Source: a virus. From it: DNA of 47,334 bases. The stretch's first letter is position 1; each line of letters opens with the position of its first letter. Under the pieces are notes generated by a model. The model ran no database searches and was not told the DNA's origin. It saw only the letters and a program-made list of their open reading frames with translations. Shown piece after piece: positions 7,070 to 46,457 of this stretch. Location: IMG/VR virus record IMGVR_UViG_3300017971_000386, positions 1-47,334 of that record, one strand, 5' to 3'. The position numbers and the translations under genes were made by a program.

Positions 7070-8432
7070 GATCCCCGCACATCTGGTGGACGCGGTACGC
7101 CGGTACAATCAGCACGCAAGGCTGAAGCCGGTCGACCACGTGCGCAGGATGTACGGCGTCAGCCCACACGAGAGGCAGGAGCAGATCACCGAGGCGCTCA
7201 TGGACCCAGAGGTCCGGCAGATCTCGTGGCGCTCAGCCAACGGTGTGGGCAAGACGTTCTGGACGGCGGTGCTCACTGCGCTGTATCTCGATGCGAACTG
7301 CCCGAGCTACGTCGTGCTGTCTGGTGCGTCGTGGACGGGCGTGCTGAAGACGATCATGCCGAGCCTGAGACGGCTCATCCGGCGCGCGCCTGTAGCACTG
7401 GGCGGCGACCCCATGGCAACGGAGTGGAGGCGTGGCGACCTGTGGGGAGCCTTCTGCGTCTCGCCCGATGTGCCTGAAGCGTTCGGCGGCTTCCGTACAG
7501 AACGCGGTGCCATGGTCATCGTCGACGAAGCGTCGAAGCTCAGCTATGAAGCGATGGAAGCGATTCAGGGCGTGTGCTCTGCAGAGGGCAGCAAGATCGT
7601 CCTGCTCGGAAACCCCCTCCGCCCAGAGGGCCCGTTCTACGATACGTTCAACAGCAGCGAGTGGCTGAACTTCCACAGCTCAGCCTTCGACGTGTGCGAC
7701 CTCGGCATCGCGGGCCTTGCGACCCGTGAGTGGATCGAAGGGATGAAGGCGGAGTACGGCGAGAACAGCGGCGTGTACAAGGCACGCGTGAAAGGCGACT
7801 TCCCAGAGGGCGGTGACGACGTGCTTGTCCCGCTCAACTGGTTGAAGAACCTACTGGTGCCCAAGGTAGCGCGGCCCAAGGGCAAGCGGATCATGGGCGT
7901 GGACGTCGCGCGCTTCGGCGATGACCGGACGGTGGTTGTGGTCCGAGACGATCGCTGTGTGCGCGGCATGTGGGCATACGACAAGAAGAGCACCATGGAG
8001 ACGGTGGGCCTGATTCAGCACCACGCGAGCAACGAAGGCGTGGAGGCTGAGAGTATCTACATCGACGACACCGGTCTCGGTGGTGGCGTGACGGATAGAC
8101 TGCACGAGCTTGAGATCGACGTGACCCCTGTGAACTTCGGGGAGACGGCGCTTGACCGTGAGAGGTTCTTTAACTGCAGGACCGAGATGTACTGGGCGAT
8201 CAGAAACGCCATGCGACCAGACGCCAAAGAAAAGCTGCTCATCCCGAAGCAGTACGCGGCTCTTGGCAAGGAGTGCACGTGGCCGAGATACACGATCCAG
8301 TCGGACCGGAAGATCAGACTTGAACCGAAGGACAAGATCAAAAAGCGAAGAGGTCGGAGTCCAGACCTTGCGGATGCCCTCGCATTAACGTACTATCACC
8401 AAGTGAATCAGTTCGGTATGGAGATGGCATGA
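7053..8432 (+). CDS. terL: Terminase large subunit (ATPase and nuclease)
   Basis: A 459-residue packaging motor. The ATPase half has NGVGKT at 63-68 (Walker A; K67, T68) and MVIVDEAS with D158-E159 (Walker B and catalytic Glu). The nuclease half has the RNase H-like acidic set: D284 in MGVDVARFGDD, D338/D339 in IDDTG and D438/D441 in SPDLADALAL. Length and layout are normal for phage TerL. The start is ATG 7053 behind AAGGGAG; a longer frame from 7011 has no ribosome site. It translocates DNA into the prohead and cuts it, working with the small subunit upstream and the portal downstream. Confidence 0.95.
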   Translation: MTATSEIPAHLVDAVRRYNQHARLKPVDHVRRMYGVSPHERQEQITEALMDPEVRQISWRSANGVGKTFWTAVLTALYLDANCPSYVVLSGASWTGVLKTIMPSLRRLIRRAPVALGGDPMATEWRRGDLWGAFCVSPDVPEAFGGFRTERGAMVIVDEASKLSYEAMEAIQGVCSAEGSKIVLLGNPLRPEGPFYDTFNSSEWLNFHSSAFDVCDLGIAGLATREWIEGMKAEYGENSGVYKARVKGDFPEGGDDVLVPLNWLKNLLVPKVARPKGKRIMGVDVARFGDDRTVVVVRDDRCVRGMWAYDKKSTMETVGLIQHHASNEGVEAESIYIDDTGLGGGVTDRLHELEIDVTPVNFGETALDRERFFNCRTEMYWAIRNAMRPDAKEKLLIPKQYAALGKECTWPRYTIQSDRKIRLEPKDKIKKRRGRSPDLADALALTYYHQVNQFGMEMA

Positions 8433-23402: not shown

Positions 23403-23816
23403 ATGGGTTGGTACAAAGTAGTCGGAGACGAGTCGATCCAATACGTCGACGAGTCCGGCCAAGAACGGAGAGCCAACGTCGGAAGTATCGTGAACATCGA
23501 GGTCCGTACCCAAGCGAAGAGGTTGAAGAAGGCGGGCCAGATCGTTCCCCTTGAAAGCGCCGATGAAAACATCGGAGCTGATTTCGTACTTCGTGAAAAG
23601 CACACGGACCCCGCACCCGCGAAAGCGTTGAAGAGCAGCCAGAAAGAAACCGTCGATGCCGAGGATGGCGAAGACATTTCGATCGGTGCCCTTGTGCAGG
23701 TCGGTGAAGAAGTCGGCGAGATCGTCAAGGTGAACACGCGAACTGTCGATGTCCGGTTTGAAGAGGACGAAGAACCCAGACGATGCAAGCGTGAAGATGT
23801 GGAGGTGATCGGATGA
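23403..23816 (+). CDS. Hypothetical protein between capsid and glycosyltransferase genes
   Basis: A 137-residue product behind AAGGAGGAGAG. The N-terminal half is beta-rich; the C-terminal half (GALVQVGEEVGEIVKV, then VDVRFEEDEEPRRC) resembles a small SH3/KOW-like barrel. It is placed where head decoration or stabilising proteins are often coded. Overlaps the next gene by 4 bases. Confidence 0.55.
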   Translation: MGWYKVVGDESIQYVDESGQERRANVGSIVNIEVRTQAKRLKKAGQIVPLESADENIGADFVLREKHTDPAPAKALKSSQKETVDAEDGEDISIGALVQVGEEVGEIVKVNTRTVDVRFEEDEEPRRCKREDVEVIG

Positions 23817-39230: not shown

Positions 39231-39385
39231 GCTGCGTGTACGCGCTCGACCTCGGGGAGCCGTTCCTGAGAGGTCGCCCGTGCATGGGCAACAAGATCGC
39301 CTGCGCTCACCCAGAGAACGCGCTGCCGGTAGTGGCAGCGAAGACGTGTTGCCCGACTGGGTGTAGGTGGCACGTCCTGAAGTAG
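39227..39385 (+). CDS. Small cysteine-rich protein
   Basis: Fifty-two residues from GTG 39227, overlapping the sulfotransferase stop. Six cysteines, including CC and GxPC, in a basic peptide (FLRGRPCMGNKIAC, KTCCPTGCRW). Its cysteine style resembles the repeated end of the sulfotransferase, so it may be a further copy or a partner. Last gene of the late block. Confidence 0.5.
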   Translation: MSCVYALDLGEPFLRGRPCMGNKIACAHPENALPVVAAKTCCPTGCRWHVLK

Positions 39386-39394
39386 CACGCCGTC

Positions 39395-39450
39395 GACCGG
39401 CACCTGTGGAAGGTCCAGAGTTGCTCCTCCGCCCGAAGCAGGTGCCGGTC
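39395..39450 (+). terminator. Perfect 12-bp dyad ending the late genes
   Basis: 39395-39406 (GACCGGCACCTG) pairs with 39439-39450 around a 32-base loop, starting 9 bases after the last late gene. The spacing is wide and there is no long U-run, but its position suggests transcription ends here. Nothing further is seen from 39451 to 39565 except GC-rich DNA. Confidence 0.5.
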
Positions 39451-39565
39451 ATTTCCGCCAGACCTTCAACCGCGCACGCCCCGTGAGCGCTCGCACGCCC
39501 GCGCCCGCACGCACGAGAGCGGGTGAGAGCGTGTGGTAGCTGATGGGTCTCTGTGGTGCCCTCTG

Positions 39566-39698
39566 AAAAACCCCCGCCGGTACTCCCCCCTGTGTGTATG
39601 TTCTTTCTTCGTGTGACCTAATTTCTTTTCTTTCTTAGAAGAGAGGAAGAGGTAGTTGCGATGGGTATACCGTGGGGGGAGTACGGGCGGGGGTATTT
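39566..39698. repeat. Inverted-repeat element, copy 2
   Basis: The left arm (39566-39590) and right arm (39674-39698) are complementary over about 22 of 24 bases, with the ACCCCCGCC and GTACTCCCCCC blocks perfect. The 83-base core has TTCTTCGTGTGACCTA, a pyrimidine-rich AT run and TAGTTGCGATG. Arms and core match the element at 4605-4737. Here no gene follows, so the element is not just a leader. Origin, operator or packaging-related functions are possible. Confidence 0.7.
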
Positions 39699-39721
39699 GC
39701 CAAGCAGCGACAGGGCTTATT

Positions 39722-39758
39722 TAGACAGAATCTAACACGATAGAATTTTCAAAATTCC
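39722..39758. promoter_or_regulatory. Two AT-rich dyads, candidate operators
   Basis: TTAGA-CAGAA-TCTAA at 39722-39736 and the perfect palindrome GAATTTT-C-AAAATTC at 39744-39758 lie just upstream of the candidate promoter. Both have the size of repressor sites. The DNA is notably AT-rich for this genome. Confidence 0.45.
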
Positions 39759-39772
39759 AACCGGATTTCATT

Positions 39773-39801
39773 TGCAACCGGGGGGTTTATGTAGTAATCT
39801 T
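39773..39801 (+). promoter_or_regulatory. Candidate promoter for the early block
   Basis: TTGCAA (39773-39778) and TAATCT (39796-39801) are separated by 17 bases, within the only AT-rich patch of the non-coding region and upstream of a boxA. The -10 is weak compared with TATAAT. Direction fits the genes from 40555 on. Confidence 0.4.
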
Positions 39802-39852
39802 AATAGTACCCGAGGGGGGAGCCCCGAGGGCAGGGCCTCAGTCGCCCGACTC

Positions 39853-39865
39853 GCTCTTTGACAAC
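39853..39865 (+). promoter_or_regulatory. boxA-like antitermination site
   Basis: CGCTCTTTGACAA differs by one base from the boxA consensus GCTCTTTAACAA bound by NusB/NusE. It follows a CCCGAGGG direct repeat (about 39810-39830) and the dyad AGTCGCCCGACT. A transcript starting near 39808 would carry it at its start, suiting antitermination of a long early transcript or of a structured RNA. Confidence 0.55.
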
Positions 39866-40450
39866 CTAGCCAACAAGACCTAGCCAAGCGACGACGCTTT
39901 CCGCAAGATGCCAGCGATCGCCTCAAGCGATCCGCGAGCCATCACCTGCCGGTACACGGCGCGGCCAAACACACGACACGATCGGTGAGGCCGAGACAGC
40001 CAGCCCGCACGACGACAAGCGCGCCCCGCAACTCACGGGGCAACCTGCGAAGAACCTCGGCCAAGGTCTCAAGGCGAAGACACCGCGTGAGGCGGGGGTT
40101 CACAACTCTGCCCAGTCACGTATCGGTCGGTCAGGCTTCACCGGGAGAAGCTACTCCGCCCAGCACGGCAACGCGTCCGGCTGGAGTACGGGGGGAGGTT
40201 GCACCGCATAGACCTCCGCGCAGAAAGCGGTGCCATTCAACATCGAGCGCGATGCAGTGCCAGAGCCGCCAACCTGCAAACCGTGGAGAGCCTAGCGCTC
40301 GCCAGATCCGCCGGAGGAGACAGCCGGTGACAAACCACGGTCCCTGCCCCACAAGCGAGACGGGAGTCGGTTGGTTCAATACATGGGCAACGAAGGTAAA
40401 GCTGCACCGCGTGGATGCTCGACTAGGATGGTGGGACACCCGAGAGGAAA
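39866..40450 (+). ncRNA. Possible large structured non-coding RNA
   Basis: About 585 bases without a convincing gene, between the boxA and the first leader element. Visible pairings: 39917-39922/39928-39933; GGCCGAG 39990-39996 with 40057-40063 enclosing the hairpin 40024-40029/40037-40042; an interleaved pair at 40195-40200/40213-40218 and 40202-40208/40228-40234, which would form a pseudoknot; and ACCGTGG 40281-40287 with 40336-40342. Stems of six or seven pairs are expected by chance in a stretch of this length, so this remains a candidate. An open frame from 39985 exists but is Arg/Ser/Pro-rich and has no ribosome site. Confidence 0.4.
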
Positions 40451-40451
40451 T

Positions 40452-40549
40452 CGAATACGCGACCGCGCTACAAAAGAGTGGGTCGCGTAAGCCGTGCCGT
40501 GGTGGGCACGACCTGACGAGACAGCTACTCTCGATCCAAGAGAAGGAGG
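40452..40549 (+). promoter_or_regulatory. Structured 5' leader element, copy A
   Basis: TCGAA is followed by stem 1 (40459-40465 with 40482-40488), then stem 2 CGTG/CACG (40494-40497, 40508-40511) around the constant loop CCGTGGTGGG, then CTGACGA (40514-40520) and the AAGGAGG ribosome site (40543-40549). It precedes the gene at 40555. Three further copies keep this order with different stem sequences. Confidence 0.65.
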
Positions 40550-40554
40550 ACTTT

Positions 40555-40746
40555 ATGTCTACATTCACAAAAGGCGCATACAAGGCACACATCGTTCGGG
40601 AAATCTACGCGGGTGCAACCAAGGTTGTCCGCAAGGTATCGAAGGATGGGATCACCAAGGCGGTCCTGCAAGAGGTCGTCGACACGTACGAGAACCTGAA
40701 GCTCAAGAAGGTGGGCAAGGGCGAGTACGCGATCCTCGTGTCCTAG
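40555..40746 (+). CDS. Small protein with KAHIVREI domain, behind leader A
   Basis: A 63-residue product. The whole protein aligns by eye with the end of the protein at 40848: KGAYKAHIVREIYAG versus KGALKAHVVRAIFAG, and VDTYENLKLKK versus VETYENLKIKK. A compact alpha/beta domain, basic. Unknown function; duplication of both the gene and its leader suggests regulatory or dosage importance. Confidence 0.6.
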   Translation: MSTFTKGAYKAHIVREIYAGATKVVRKVSKDGITKAVLQEVVDTYENLKLKKVGKGEYAILVS

Positions 40747-40754
40747 ACGCCAAG

Positions 40755-40842
40755 TCGAAACGCTCCGCCCATGTGCGGGGCGTACGTCCACCGTGGTGGG
40801 TGGGCGCTGACGAGACAGCCACTCGATGGAGAACGAAGGAGG
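40755..40842 (+). promoter_or_regulatory. Structured 5' leader element, copy B
   Basis: TCGAA, stem 1 of nine pairs (40760-40768 with 40775-40783), stem 2 CGTCCA/TGGGCG (40785-40790, 40801-40806) around the constant loop CCGTGGTGGG, CTGACGA (40807-40813), and AAGGAGG (40836-40842). Precedes the gene at 40848. Confidence 0.7.
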
Positions 40843-40847
40843 ACGTT

Positions 40848-41381
40848 ATGAGTAAGAGCAAGAAGAGCAAGACCGGTCTGCAGTACTTCGCAAAGGTCAA
40901 GGGTCAGCGCGGCTACCTCGCGTTCAACGTCGAGGAGTGCGAGACCTGTGGTGGGACGACGCAAGCGGCAAACGCCGTCAACCTCCACGAGACCGCCAAG
41001 AAGCTGCAGTCGTTGGGGATGACGAAGTGGGATGGCTCACTTCCCCCAGAAGCGTGGTACGACGATGAGTCGAACCAGTGCAAGTGTGAACTGTGTGACG
41101 TTGATGAACCCACAAAGGAGGAAACTATGACTACGACCAAAAAGACCAACAGCAAGAGCAAGAAGACCAGCAGCAAGAAGACCGCGAAGAGCAACCCCAA
41201 TTTCCACAAGGGCGCGCTCAAGGCCCACGTGGTTCGGGCTATCTTCGCCGGTGAAACCTCGATCGTTCGGGAAGTCGACGAAGACGGCGTGATCAAGACC
41301 GTCTTTGCCGAGCTTGTCGAAACCTACGAGAACCTGAAGATCAAGAAGGGCAAGAAGCAGTGGACCCTTCTGGTCGCGTAG
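40848..41381 (+). CDS. Cysteine-containing protein fused to a KAHVVRAI domain
   Basis: A 177-residue product. Residues 1-92 are basic then contain CETCGG and CKCELC, a possible zinc site. Residues 94-117 are a Lys/Ser/Thr linker, and the last 60 residues are a paralogue of the protein at 40555. Inside, ATG 41127 has its own AAAGGAGG, so the last 84 residues may also be made as a separate protein. This looks like two genes joined by loss of a stop codon. Confidence 0.6.
   Translation: MSKSKKSKTGLQYFAKVKGQRGYLAFNVEECETCGGTTQAANAVNLHETAKKLQSLGMTKWDGSLPPEAWYDDESNQCKCELCDVDEPTKEETMTTTKKTNSKSKKTSSKKTAKSNPNFHKGALKAHVVRAIFAGETSIVREVDEDGVIKTVFAELVETYENLKIKKGKKQWTLLVA
41127..41381 (+). CDS. Internal start product: KAHVVRAI-domain protein
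   Basis: ATG 41127 lies in frame within the preceding gene, 8 bases after AAAGGAGG. The product would be 84 residues: a Lys/Ser tail and the full domain also coded at 40555. The strong site argues that this form is made; the longer fusion may be made as well. Confidence 0.45.
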   Translation: MTTTKKTNSKSKKTSSKKTAKSNPNFHKGALKAHVVRAIFAGETSIVREVDEDGVIKTVFAELVETYENLKIKKGKKQWTLLVA

Positions 41382-41388
41382 GATCAAG

Positions 41389-41465
41389 TCGAATCGCCCC
41401 GCGCATCTGGGGCGACGTCGCACCGTGGTGGGTGCGGCCTGATGATGACAGCCAAACGAAGGAGG
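41389..41465 (+). promoter_or_regulatory. Structured 5' leader element, copy C
   Basis: TCGAA, stem 1 TCGCCCC/GGGGCGA (41394-41400, 41409-41415), stem 2 GTCGCA/TGCGGC (41417-41422, 41433-41438) around CCGTGGTGGG, CTGATGA (41439-41445), AAGGAGG (41459-41465). Precedes a 20-residue open frame at 41470. Confidence 0.7.
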
Positions 41466-41469
41466 ACAC

Positions 41470-41532
41470 ATGGGCGAGATCAAGATGGTCTTTGACTACA
41501 TCGTAAGCGTGGTGATCGGTTGGACCCTGTAG
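41470..41532 (+). CDS. Twenty-residue hydrophobic peptide behind leader C
   Basis: ATG 41470 follows an ideal AAGGAGGACAC. The peptide MGEIKMVFDYIVSVVIGWTL is mostly hydrophobic and could sit in the membrane. Having the same leader as full-size genes suggests it is translated: either a functional peptide or a leader peptide for the gene at 41545. Confidence 0.4.
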   Translation: MGEIKMVFDYIVSVVIGWTL

Positions 41533-41544
41533 AAGGAGGACAGT

Positions 41545-41736
41545 ATGAACGCACCGAAGAAGCAGCAGGACGTGACAGTGTACCGTGACCACCAGAGTGG
41601 GGTCGGGTATTCGTATCAGGTCTACATCGACGGCGAAGCGATGGGGAGCTATCTGGAGAGCGACGAAGAGCTTCAGCAAATCGTCGGTCCCGACTTCGAC
41701 TTTGAAGCCGATGTTGTTCAGGGCCTGAGCTACTAG
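41545..41736 (+). CDS. Hypothetical small acidic protein
   Basis: Sixty-three residues behind AAGGAGGACAG. VTVYRDHQSGVGYSYQVYID forms a likely beta-hairpin, followed by an acidic helix (ESDEELQQIVG). No family recognised. Confidence 0.55.
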   Translation: MNAPKKQQDVTVYRDHQSGVGYSYQVYIDGEAMGSYLESDEELQQIVGPDFDFEADVVQGLSY

Positions 41737-41752
41737 AAAGAAGGAGGACACT

Positions 41753-42136
41753 ATGAAAGCGAAGAACGGACGGAAGCGATTGGAGAAGTACCTGAGTGTG
41801 CAGCAGTACAAGGCGCTGAGTCGCCTGTGCAAGGGCGAGGAGCGCGAGTACTTCGCCGAGATGTTGGATGAACTCGCGACCCGCGTCGAGACCATGCCGA
41901 AGATCTACGAGCAAGACGGCAAGGGCGACGACGCGATCGTGTACCTGCACTACTTCACCGGCGGGTACGACTGGTACATCACCGAGATCAGCGGCGACGA
42001 AGGCTTCGGCCTGTGCTGCATCTTCGAGCGTGAGCTTGGGTACGTGAGCATTCCCGAGCTGACCAAGGTGGGTGCCGAGTTGGATCTGCACTGGACCCCG
42101 AAGCGTCTGGGCGACGTCAAGCCCTGCGCAGTCTAA
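41753..42136 (+). CDS. DUF2958-like protein
   Basis: A 127-residue product behind AAGGAGGACAC. AIVYLHYFTGGYDWYITEI, then GLCCIFERELGYVSIPEL and LDLHWTPKRLGDV follow the DUF2958 pattern of phage and plasmid proteins (a 'FF...W..TE', 'ELGY.S..EL', 'ER/DLHF' order). Function of the family is unknown. Confidence 0.7.
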   Translation: MKAKNGRKRLEKYLSVQQYKALSRLCKGEEREYFAEMLDELATRVETMPKIYEQDGKGDDAIVYLHYFTGGYDWYITEISGDEGFGLCCIFERELGYVSIPELTKVGAELDLHWTPKRLGDVKPCAV

Positions 42137-42218
42137 TCCGAAATGCCCCGCGCATCTGGGGCATATGCTCGACCGTGGTGGGCGAGCACTGATGAGGAAG
42201 CCAAACGAAAGAAGGAGG
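42137..42218 (+). promoter_or_regulatory. Structured 5' leader element, copy D
   Basis: CCGAA, stem 1 ATGCCCC/GGGGCAT (42143-42149, 42158-42164), stem 2 TGCTCG/CGAGCA (42166-42171, 42183-42188) around the constant loop preceded by one A, CTGATGA (42189-42195), AAGGAGG (42212-42218). Precedes the gene at 42224. Stems 1 of copies C and D have the same loop but exchanged outer pairs. Confidence 0.7.
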
Positions 42219-42223
42219 ACACT

Positions 42224-43300
42224 ATGACTACGAGCAAGAAAGCAACCAACCGGAAGAAGCAGGTCAAGGCCAAGAGCAGCAAGCCCAAGGTGGGTGACTA
42301 CGTTGTGCTGAGTTCGGGCAACGATGGAGACGTGTACCGTGTTGCAGGCAAGCCGGACGAAGGCGGTCTGTGGAAGCTGAGCAAGATCGGCTACACTTGG
42401 GGCGACAAGTACAAAGCGGTCGAAGACTTCGAGGTTATCACCCAGTCGCACCAGTTCAGCTATCAGCACAAGCTCGTGACCCTGACCAAGGTGGGCGAGA
42501 CCACGAGCGAAGGCGTTGTGGTCCTGACCAACACCGTGACCGCGAGCATCGGTGACGAGATCAAAGACATCAACACCAAGTGGCTGACCCGCCGCACCAA
42601 CGCGATCCCCTGCCCCGAGTGCAGCAGTGGGTACGGGCACACCAACAGCGACGGCGAAGCGAAGAAGTGTCCTGCCTGTACGCACAAGGCAGCGACAGCG
42701 ATTGCGAAGGTCGCGCTCGAAGCGCAGGTGTCCGAGATCAACGACGTCGATCTGATCTCGGTCTCCGCCCCGCGTCGGCCTGAGCAGTGCAGCTTCAAGC
42801 TCAAGGTGGGCGAGTACGTGTACAGCTGTGAGAAGGACGGACCGTACAGCTACGGCACCGAGTATACGTACGAACGGAAGGCGAACTACAGCCGCAGCAC
42901 GCAGCCGAGCTGCAAGAGCCTGAAGGGTCTGCTCTCAAGCATCAAGCGCGACATCGCGAAGAAGGCCGAGCAGGAAGAGGAACGCGCAGCACGTAACGCC
43001 AAACGGGCGCAGGAAGCGAAAGAGCTGAGCGACGTCATCGGTCGCGAGACGGAGAGCAGCTATCGGGCGAACCTGACCAAGACGGTGCAGGTCGACCGCG
43101 ACGAATCCGACGAGTACACGATCGAGATCGAGAAGCTCACGGCTGACAAGGCGAAGGAACTGATCGCCCTGCTCAAGACCGGCGGCTTCATCAAGGACGA
43201 AGAGCTTGGTCAGCAGTGCAGCCACAAGAGCTGCAAGCGTTGGGTCTTCGCCGAGAGCGGCAAGTGCTTCATCCACGAAGACGACGAAGACGACGAGTAG
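42224..43300 (+). CDS. Hypothetical zinc-finger protein behind leader D
   Basis: A 358-residue product. Basic N-terminal tail (MTTSKKATNRKKQVK, like the product started at 41127), then KVGDYVVLSSGNDGDVYRV, possibly an SH3-like barrel. IPCPECSSGYGHTNS and KKCPACTHK make a four-Cys zinc finger in the middle (DnaJ-like spacing), a coiled coil follows, and the end has CSHKSCKRW with an acidic tail. Function unknown; the shared basic tail and leader tie it to the 40555-41381 genes. Confidence 0.6.
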   Translation: MTTSKKATNRKKQVKAKSSKPKVGDYVVLSSGNDGDVYRVAGKPDEGGLWKLSKIGYTWGDKYKAVEDFEVITQSHQFSYQHKLVTLTKVGETTSEGVVVLTNTVTASIGDEIKDINTKWLTRRTNAIPCPECSSGYGHTNSDGEAKKCPACTHKAATAIAKVALEAQVSEINDVDLISVSAPRRPEQCSFKLKVGEYVYSCEKDGPYSYGTEYTYERKANYSRSTQPSCKSLKGLLSSIKRDIAKKAEQEEERAARNAKRAQEAKELSDVIGRETESSYRANLTKTVQVDRDESDEYTIEIEKLTADKAKELIALLKTGGFIKDEELGQQCSHKSCKRWVFAESGKCFIHEDDEDDE

Positions 43301-44075: not shown

Positions 44076-44291
44076 ATGGCACGACGCCAAACGGAAGAGG
44101 TGAAGAAGTTCCTGCGGATCGGCAAGCGTCGACTGTATGAGGTGCGCGTGATGGGCGTGTTCGTCGGTCACCGTGAAGGCAGCGACGCCACGATCCGCAA
44201 GCAGGTGAAGGACACGTACAACACCAACGCGGTGCGCCTGAAGAAGGTGTGGGAAGTAGAAAGGAGAGGACGCGATGGAAGTGAAGATTAG
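44076..44291 (+). CDS. Hypothetical small basic protein
   Basis: Seventy-one residues behind AAGGAGGAGG. Arg/Lys-rich throughout with short strands (LYEVRVMGVFVGHREG). A nucleic-acid-binding role would suit the charge; no family recognised. Overlaps the next gene by 17 bases. Confidence 0.55.
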   Translation: MARRQTEEVKKFLRIGKRRLYEVRVMGVFVGHREGSDATIRKQVKDTYNTNAVRLKKVWEVERRGRDGSED

Positions 44292-44871
44292 CAAGATGAC
44301 CGGCAAGCTGTACGGGGTCGATGCAGTGAACACTAGCCCGCTCGACAATGGGTGGTGTCGGTCGATGGAGTTGGTGCCGGACGCCGACCACGTCTGCGTC
44401 GAGTGCTTCAGCTTCGCGATGCTGCGAGGCAGTCGCAAGAACTGCAGAGCATCGTGGGCGAAGAACGGCGAGGTGCTTAGCGAAGGACCGCTCAAGTTCG
44501 TGCCGTTCTTCCATACGTTCCTTGGTCGCTTCAATGGACACGGGGAACTGATCAACCGACAGCACGCGGCGAACCTGTGCACCATCGCCCGCCACAATCC
44601 GCAGACGCGATTCGCGCTGTGGACGAAGCGCGTGGATCTGGTCAAGCGGCTGCGTCGCCCGAAGAACATGTGGCTGATCTACAGCAACCCCAGAATCGAC
44701 GCGCCGATGGAGAAGCCGCCGCGCCCGTTCGACAAGGTGTTCAACGTCGTGCGGAGCGACGGCCCGTACGCGGACCGCATCAACTGCGGGCCGTGCAAGT
44801 GTGTGGAGTGTGAGCGTTGCTACTCTGAAGGGTGCGACGTTATTTTTGAAGCGCTGAAGAAGCGCAGCTAG
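44275..44871 (+). CDS. Gp88-like cysteine-rich phage protein
   Basis: A 198-residue product behind AAAGGAGAGG. The order KMTGKLYGVDAVNTSPLDNGWC, HVCVECFS, SRKNCRASW, HGELINRQHAANL, TRFALWTKR and INCGPCKCVECERCY is that of the phage family known as Gp88, which has a conserved Cys set that could hold a metal or an Fe-S cluster. It was described from mycobacteriophages but occurs widely. Function unknown. A radical SAM gene lies two genes downstream. Confidence 0.65.
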   Translation: MEVKISKMTGKLYGVDAVNTSPLDNGWCRSMELVPDADHVCVECFSFAMLRGSRKNCRASWAKNGEVLSEGPLKFVPFFHTFLGRFNGHGELINRQHAANLCTIARHNPQTRFALWTKRVDLVKRLRRPKNMWLIYSNPRIDAPMEKPPRPFDKVFNVVRSDGPYADRINCGPCKCVECERCYSEGCDVIFEALKKRS

Positions 44872-45662: not shown

Positions 45663-46457
45663 ATGAGTTTGATATATGAACCCCGTGGTAAGGCGAGGGA
45701 GTACAGCCCCCTCGCCTTGAACCTGTACACCGGATGCAAGCACGCGTGCCGGTACTGCTACGCGCCGAGCATCATGCGACAGAAGCTGCACGTGTGGGCG
45801 AAGAACATGAAGATCAGGGGCGGCGACGAGAAGTCGCTGCTCAATTCGCTCGACCGCGAGGCGGCACGCATGGCAGGCGACAAGCGTGACATCCTGCTGA
45901 GCTTCATGACTGACCCGTACTGTACCCCAGAAGCAGCAGCCACGACGCGAAAGGCGCTGACCATTCTGGAGGCGCACAAGCTGCGGGTGCAGGTGTTGAC
46001 CAAAGCACCGAGCAGGGCGAAGGCTGACTTCGACATCATCGCCCGCAACGGTTGGAAGATGGCGACGACGCTCGGCTTCTACAGCAAAGCGAAAGCGAAG
46101 CAGTGGGAGCCGTACGCGGACAGCCCGCTCGTGCGGATCAACGCGATGAAGGAAGCAGCATCGCAAGACATCTTCACGTGGGTGAGCGCGGAGCCCATCA
46201 TCTTTCCAGAGGAAGGGCTGAAAGCGATCAAGGCTCTGGCCGGATACATCGACCTGATCAAGATCGGCAAGCTCAACCATAACAAGGCGCTTGAGTCCCG
46301 CGTCGACTGGGGCAAGTTCCTCGGCGATGCGGAGGCGCTGCTGCACGGGACGTACACGCGGTGGTACGTCAAGAAGGATCTGGAGAAGCACCGCAACACA
46401 GACAAGCTCGATGGTCAGTTGACCTTCGAGGAGTTGGAGAAGTTCGGCAGCGTGTGA
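45663..46457 (+). CDS. Radical SAM protein, SPL-related
   Basis: A 264-residue product behind AAAGGAGC. The Fe-S motif is C25-x3-C29-x2-C32 in LYTGCKHACRYCYAP, with LSFMTDPYCTPEA and LRVQVLTKAPSRA typical of the spore-photoproduct-lyase-like radical SAM group. TWVSAEPIIFPEEGLKAI follows the barrel strands. The substrate is unknown: relatives in phages have been linked to nucleic-acid modification or repair, but nothing here decides it. Confidence 0.8.
   Translation: MSLIYEPRGKAREYSPLALNLYTGCKHACRYCYAPSIMRQKLHVWAKNMKIRGGDEKSLLNSLDREAARMAGDKRDILLSFMTDPYCTPEAAATTRKALTILEAHKLRVQVLTKAPSRAKADFDIIARNGWKMATTLGFYSKAKAKQWEPYADSPLVRINAMKEAASQDIFTWVSAEPIIFPEEGLKAIKALAGYIDLIKIGKLNHNKALESRVDWGKFLGDAEALLHGTYTRWYVKKDLEKHRNTDKLDGQLTFEELEKFGSV

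Follow-up and report, generated by a model that had tools for sequence, protein, structure and literature searches.

Type II hammerhead ribozymes between the small genes of a tailed phage

Four structured leaders (A to D) in the genome of a tailed phage are type II hammerhead ribozymes (Rfam RF02276, Hammerhead_II). They lie in one window, that is the whole analysed stretch of 47,334 nucleotides. Both the element and its arrangement, with ribozymes between the small genes of a phage operon, were known before, and the leaders are a further example of them. Prophage hammerhead clusters which flank genes were already published in 2011, in a study that also names the phage PaP3 and proposes transcript processing (Perreault et al. 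2011, PMC3088659). The prophage-like clusters of Agrobacterium tumefaciens, Azorhizobium caulinodans and Clostridium scindens, where hammerheads flank small genes as in the window, cleave in their natural form in vitro, and the one of A. tumefaciens does so also in E. coli (PMC3088659). The genes in the window differ from those of these clusters. In the phage transcript the four ribozymes would cleave themselves and divide a polycistronic RNA between its genes, a reading to which a probability of about 0.88 is assigned. The cleavage, its rate and its purpose, namely processing and stability of the RNA, are what we infer from the features described below.

Identity and anatomy of the ribozymes

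A scan of the whole window with 4227 Rfam families (cmscan) gave three matches above threshold, all of them to RF02276: C with 57.1 bits (E 2.8e-9), D with 54.9 bits (E 1e-8) and B with 53.5 bits (E 2.5e-8), the gathering threshold being 37 bits. The RF02276 matches are on the same strand as the genes. Ribozyme A stays under the cut-off with 29.3 bits, yet is significant (E 0.0041 in a search of 3.6 kb and 1.3e-5 in a one-family search); it is a divergent member by its anatomy, not by the Rfam rule. A covariance model of our own, built from 16 phage relatives none of which stems from the window, matches all four leaders with 51.4, 47.4, 43.9 and, for A, 26.3 bits (E 1.7e-4). Sensitive searches including this model revealed no other convincing copy in the window. 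A match of 18.4 bits at 23618–23646 is without stems and was rejected. On shuffled DNA our own descriptor gave no matches. The folding energies of the single sequences B, C and D are unremarkable (z −1.5 to −2.0).

All four copies have the same order of parts: CGAA, helix III hairpin, H17, helix I hairpin and CUGANGA, with an open helix II (Table 1). C3–A9 and G12–A14 are intact and H17 is not a G in 4/4 copies. Helix II comprises 2 bp in A and 3 bp in B as well as D; in C, 3 bp require that the extra U after A9 bulges out. Stem 1 of A has about 8–9 bp and a longer loop than in B–D.

Table 1 Ribozymes and open reading frames of the array (positions in the window)
Feature	Position	Strand	Characteristics
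Ribozyme A (divergent)	40449–40530	+	RF02276 29.3 bits; core intact; stem II 5' strand 40451–40452; G12–A14 40453–40455; helix III 40456–40489, U15.1–A16.1; H17 A40490; predicted cleavage 40490/40491; helix I 40491–40512, one C–A mismatch; core CTGACGA 40513–40519; loop UGGU 40500–40503 pairs with tail GCUA 40524–40527
SD AGGAGG and ATG after A	40544–40557	+	start 35 nt past core
63-aa ORF between A and B	40555–40746	+	no family match
Ribozyme B (consensus core)	40753–40824	+	RF02276 53.5 bits; G12–A14 40757–40759; helix III 40760–40783, A15.1–U16.1; H17 A40784; predicted cleavage 40784/40785; helix I 40785–40806; core CTGACGA 40807–40813; stem II GTC/GAC; loop UGGU 40794–40797 with tail GCCA 40818–40821
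177-aa ORF between B and C	40848–41381	+	no family match
Internal in-frame AAAGGAGG...ATG of 177-aa ORF	41127	+	
Ribozyme C (core variant)	41387–41457	+	RF02276 57.1 bits; G12–A14 41391–41393; helix III 41394–41415, U15.1–A16.1; H17 C41416; predicted cleavage 41416/41417; helix I 41417–41438; core CTGATGA 41439–41445; extra U 41446 after core, then stem II GAC/GTC; loop UGGU 41426–41429 with tail GCCA 41451–41454
20-aa mini-ORF directly after C	41470–41532	+	start 24 nt past core; AGGAGG at 41460
63-aa ORF between C and D	41545–41736	+	weak phrog_5671, E 0.0025
127-aa ORF before D	41753–42136	+	phrog_5203, DUF2958-like
Ribozyme D (consensus core)	42136–42206	+	RF02276 54.9 bits; G12–A14 42140–42142; helix III 42143–42164, A15.1–U16.1; H17 A42165; predicted cleavage 42165/42166; helix I 42166–42188; core CTGATGA 42189–42195; stem II TCC/GGA; loop UGGU 42176–42179 with tail GCCA 42200–42203
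358-aa ORF after D	42224–43300	+	no known family

The four copies are present where and on the strand on which a first-pass annotation had placed them, each followed by AAGGAGG and an ATG (40555, 40848, 41470 and 42224 for A to D), and the compensatory differences between their paired stems are real in all four. Its motifs can be read in hammerhead terms: TCGAA/CCGAA is C11.1–G12–A13–A14, stem 1 is helix III, stem 2 is helix I and CTGAYGA is C3–A9. Absent from this description were the short stem II outside CGAA...CTGAYGA and the loop-pairing tail AGCCA (AGCTA in A). What had been given as a constant loop, CCGTGGTGGG, really consists of two C–G pairs and a 6-nt loop GUGGUG, with an adjacent extra A in D. 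Similarly, stem 2 of A, given as CGTG/CACG, does pair but is longer and contains one C–A mismatch at 1.2–2.2.

With the type II hammerheads known so far (PMC3088659) the window copies have in common the order of the parts, the core, the short open stem II, the pairing of loop and tail, the phage setting and the clusters between small genes. They differ from RF02276 in the U15.1–A16.1 pair of two copies, the A at H17 of three, the extra U of C, and the long helix III loop of A together with its score under the Rfam cut-off.

Covariation and the loop–tail pseudoknot

A conserved RNA structure had been proposed on the basis of the compensating changes, and a larger alignment of 117 sequences bears this out. 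MAFFT alignments put helix III wrongly; therefore a covariance model was used on an equal-length set. All 17 helix pairs change on both sides and 98.7 % of the cells pair. The covariation score is 0.714, compared to 0.171 ± 0.009 in 500 shuffles and 0.059–0.112 with slid partners, figures that are inflated by the fitting of the alignment to the structure and by the relatedness of the sequences; the contrast to the slid partners is very large.

A pseudoknot between the helix I loop and the 3' tail has been described for type II hammerheads (PMC3088659). It is formed by UGGU/GCCA in B, C and D and by UGGU/GCUA in A. Among 116 sequences it is paired in 98.5 % of the cells, with little variation in a sample that was picked by its loop sequence. 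Ribozymes with other loops have changed but complementary partners, UCGC/GCGA in contig L083, GCCCU/AGGGC in L070 and CUAU/AUAG in L005, and these give independent support for the pseudoknot. A crystallised hammerhead (PMC11300833), in which the 2'-OH of G8 is the general acid, also combines the hammerhead core with a pseudoknot that replaces the loop–loop contacts. There, helix II is replaced by a pseudoknot helix and a further helix IV is present, whereas the window ribozymes retain a short helix II and their tail pairs with the helix I loop.

Two of the ribozymes with other loops deserve a remark of their own. The one of L070 (IMGVR_UViG_3300037755_000910, 7870–7941) is situated 3 nt past the upstream stop and directly before a DUF2958-like gene, a homolog (50 % identity) of the 127-aa ORF in front of ribozyme D. 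RF02276 gives no match for it, hence type II hammerheads are probably undercounted by Rfam. The one of L005, a second hammerhead, lies on the minus strand close to plus coordinate 4,800 and is missed by RF02276 as well.

Gene context in the window and in related contigs

The window is a tailed-phage contig with genes for terminase, portal, major head protein and tape measure. No near match to it exists in the phage collection; a search with the tape measure gave one near-identical contig (L250), which ends before the array. Ribozymes B, C and D begin at most about 10 nt from the stop codon of the ORF before them, and the stop of the 127-aa ORF even overlaps the first base of the match of D. 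Past the core of each of the four comes an AGGAGG, with an ATG at a distance of 24–35 nt from the core. A consensus scan of the gene strand found neither a sigma-70 promoter nor a terminator, and for want of a promoter the shared transcript is assumed from the gene order. The 63-aa protein after A is 55 % identical over 62 aa to the C-terminal part of the 177-aa protein after B; the pair would be the result of a duplication and fusion of a small gene. Within 40555–41381 the internal copy in the 177-aa ORF has its own in-frame Shine-Dalgarno sequence and ATG. Protein searches found no relative of the 358-aa protein.

Upstream of the array, about 1.2 kb (39231–40448) are without a convincing gene. 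This region contains a long imperfect inverted repeat (39566–39698) with arms around CCCCCGCCGGTACTCCCCCC / GGGGGGAGTACGGGCGGGGG, whose match to a plant miRNA family in the Rfam search was dismissed as chance. Downstream of the array, a GP88-domain protein (44275–44871) and a radical-SAM protein (45663–46457, DUF5131-like, weak) are encoded close together.

Related ribozymes were looked for in further contigs. A first viral pattern, CCGTGGTGGGN{3,9}CTGAYGA, yielded 63 stretches, nearly all of them by chance; Rfam confirmed 4 of 67 records (the 63 pattern records and L068–L071). The matches of 35.1 bits in L005, L020 and L058 are one identical sequence. The gene context was surveyed at 158 distinct sites in viral and prokaryote contigs. 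In 84 % of them the ribozyme starts at most 10 nt from the stop of the upstream ORF (10.5 % for random positions), and in 77 % a Shine-Dalgarno sequence and a start codon follow within 40 nt past the core (15 % in the control), mostly at 18–20 nt; both values come from related phages found by the ribozyme pattern and are not fully independent, which is partly lessened by clustering of the flanks. Counted once per flank cluster, 38 of 48 lie as close to a stop and 34 of 48 have a Shine-Dalgarno sequence and start within that distance. Thus, type II hammerheads occupy the gap between a stop codon and the next ribosome binding site.

An extreme ribozyme-punctuated operon is found in L083 (IMGVR_UViG_3300017605_000570, 57,338 bp). 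On its minus strand, 24 type II hammerheads score above the Rfam cut-off between 9932 and 17520, that is 24 in 7.6 kb or about one per 300 nt. The parsed ribozymes of this contig (11/11) all lie between the stop of a small gene and the Shine-Dalgarno sequence of the next.

Proposed function and activity of the copies

The phage transcript would run from left to right through the four embedded ribozymes. Each is predicted to fold into a helix III hairpin and a helix I hairpin, with a helix II of 2–3 bp closing the junction, and pairing of the helix I loop with the downstream AGCC(A) tail would keep helices I and II next to each other. Self-cleavage would then occur on the 3' side of H17, where helix III meets helix I. 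In this way a 2',3'-cyclic phosphate behind the helix III hairpin would terminate the RNA of the upstream gene shortly past its stop codon. The RNA of the downstream gene would carry a 5'-hydroxyl at its head, then the helix I hairpin and, further on, the Shine-Dalgarno sequence and ATG of this gene itself. Cotranscriptional splitting by the array may release segments of one to three genes: 40491–40784 (one gene), 40785–41416 (one gene, with a possible internal start), 41417–42165 (three small ORFs) and a segment from 42166 onward. The segment ends are probably shielded from decay, a protection against nucleases that is deduced from what is known of hairpin-capped and 5'-OH RNAs.

The first-pass annotation had instead considered a translational operator, a regulator-binding site or an unknown RNA element, none of which is supported, as the element is a named self-cleaving ribozyme. 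Leaders which switch the access to the Shine-Dalgarno sequence by binding of a protein and not by cleavage would agree with their position directly before these sites and with the nearly constant loop. However, this loop is accounted for by the pseudoknot with the tail, not by a protein (PMC3088659), and elsewhere it co-varies with the tail. Moreover, the predicted probability of an unpaired Shine-Dalgarno sequence is hardly altered by cleavage in three of the four copies (A 0.39 before and 0.40 after, B 0.70 and 0.78, C 0.49 and 0.47) and differs modestly in D (0.70 and 0.84), in a calculation that ignores the pseudoknot. Because of this small change, and because an operator would not require the conserved catalytic core, a pure translational switch is very improbable. 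Viroid and retrozyme circular RNAs are processed by hammerheads, and the paralogous genes after A and B suggest that a unit of ribozyme and gene was duplicated; both would suit a role in RNA circularisation, splicing-like ligation or a mobile element in place of mRNA processing. Such a role is hardly credible in view of the intervening genes, small phage ORFs of an ordinary kind that each have a Shine-Dalgarno sequence, and at the array neither a reverse transcriptase nor an integrase or repeat unit was noticed. Furthermore, spliced or circular products were sought in the earlier study, and none were found (PMC3088659).

A script parsed 145 unique type II ribozymes; in these the 15.1–16.1 pair is A–U in 142, G–U in one (possibly a mis-parse) and U–A in two, and these two are copies A and C of the window. 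H17 is an A in 4 of the 145, three of which are A, B and D of the window, compared to 1 of the 141 others. The extra U of C (41446) between A9 and helix II, which may either bulge out or form 10.1, has counterparts in L005, L041, L102, L126, L183, L221 and L222, where likewise an additional pyrimidine occurs at this place. A natural hammerhead with U15.1–A16.1 has been tested and cleaves with reduced efficiency (PMC3088659). Since A and C carry this pair and B and D the consensus core, fast cutting is expected of B and D and slower cutting of A and C. A and C could be slow or inactive in view of the deviating 15.1–16.1 pair, the extra U of C, and the mismatch and 2-bp stem II of A. That only B and D work, with A and C as decaying or nearly inactive copies retained as stable hairpins, is somewhat unlikely. 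It would fit the restriction of U15.1–A16.1 to A and C (2/145), the reported lower activity of this variant (PMC3088659), the extra U before stem II of C, and the helix I mismatch and low score of A. Nevertheless, the two bases at the altered position still match each other and the other core bases are intact, unlike in random decay; the extra pyrimidine after A9 recurs in the seven contigs listed above, and the natural variant tested earlier did cleave (PMC3088659). A graded array, in which fast B and D alternate with slow A and C and the gene boundaries are cut to differing extents, is a doubtful proposal. If true, the balance between mono- and polycistronic mRNA, and through it the stoichiometry of the proteins made, would be set by the cutting.

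The nature of the leaders is settled, and a predicted cut site is given for each. The window adds two more natural hammerheads with the rare U15.1–A16.1 pair in an array that is otherwise intact, and may offer a natural comparison of fast and slow cutters within one operon, their rates being those expected from the core. The survey of related contigs points to type II hammerheads serving phages as tight spacers between the stop of one gene and the start of the next, with up to 24 in one contig, and this use bears on the question of what bacterial hammerheads do.
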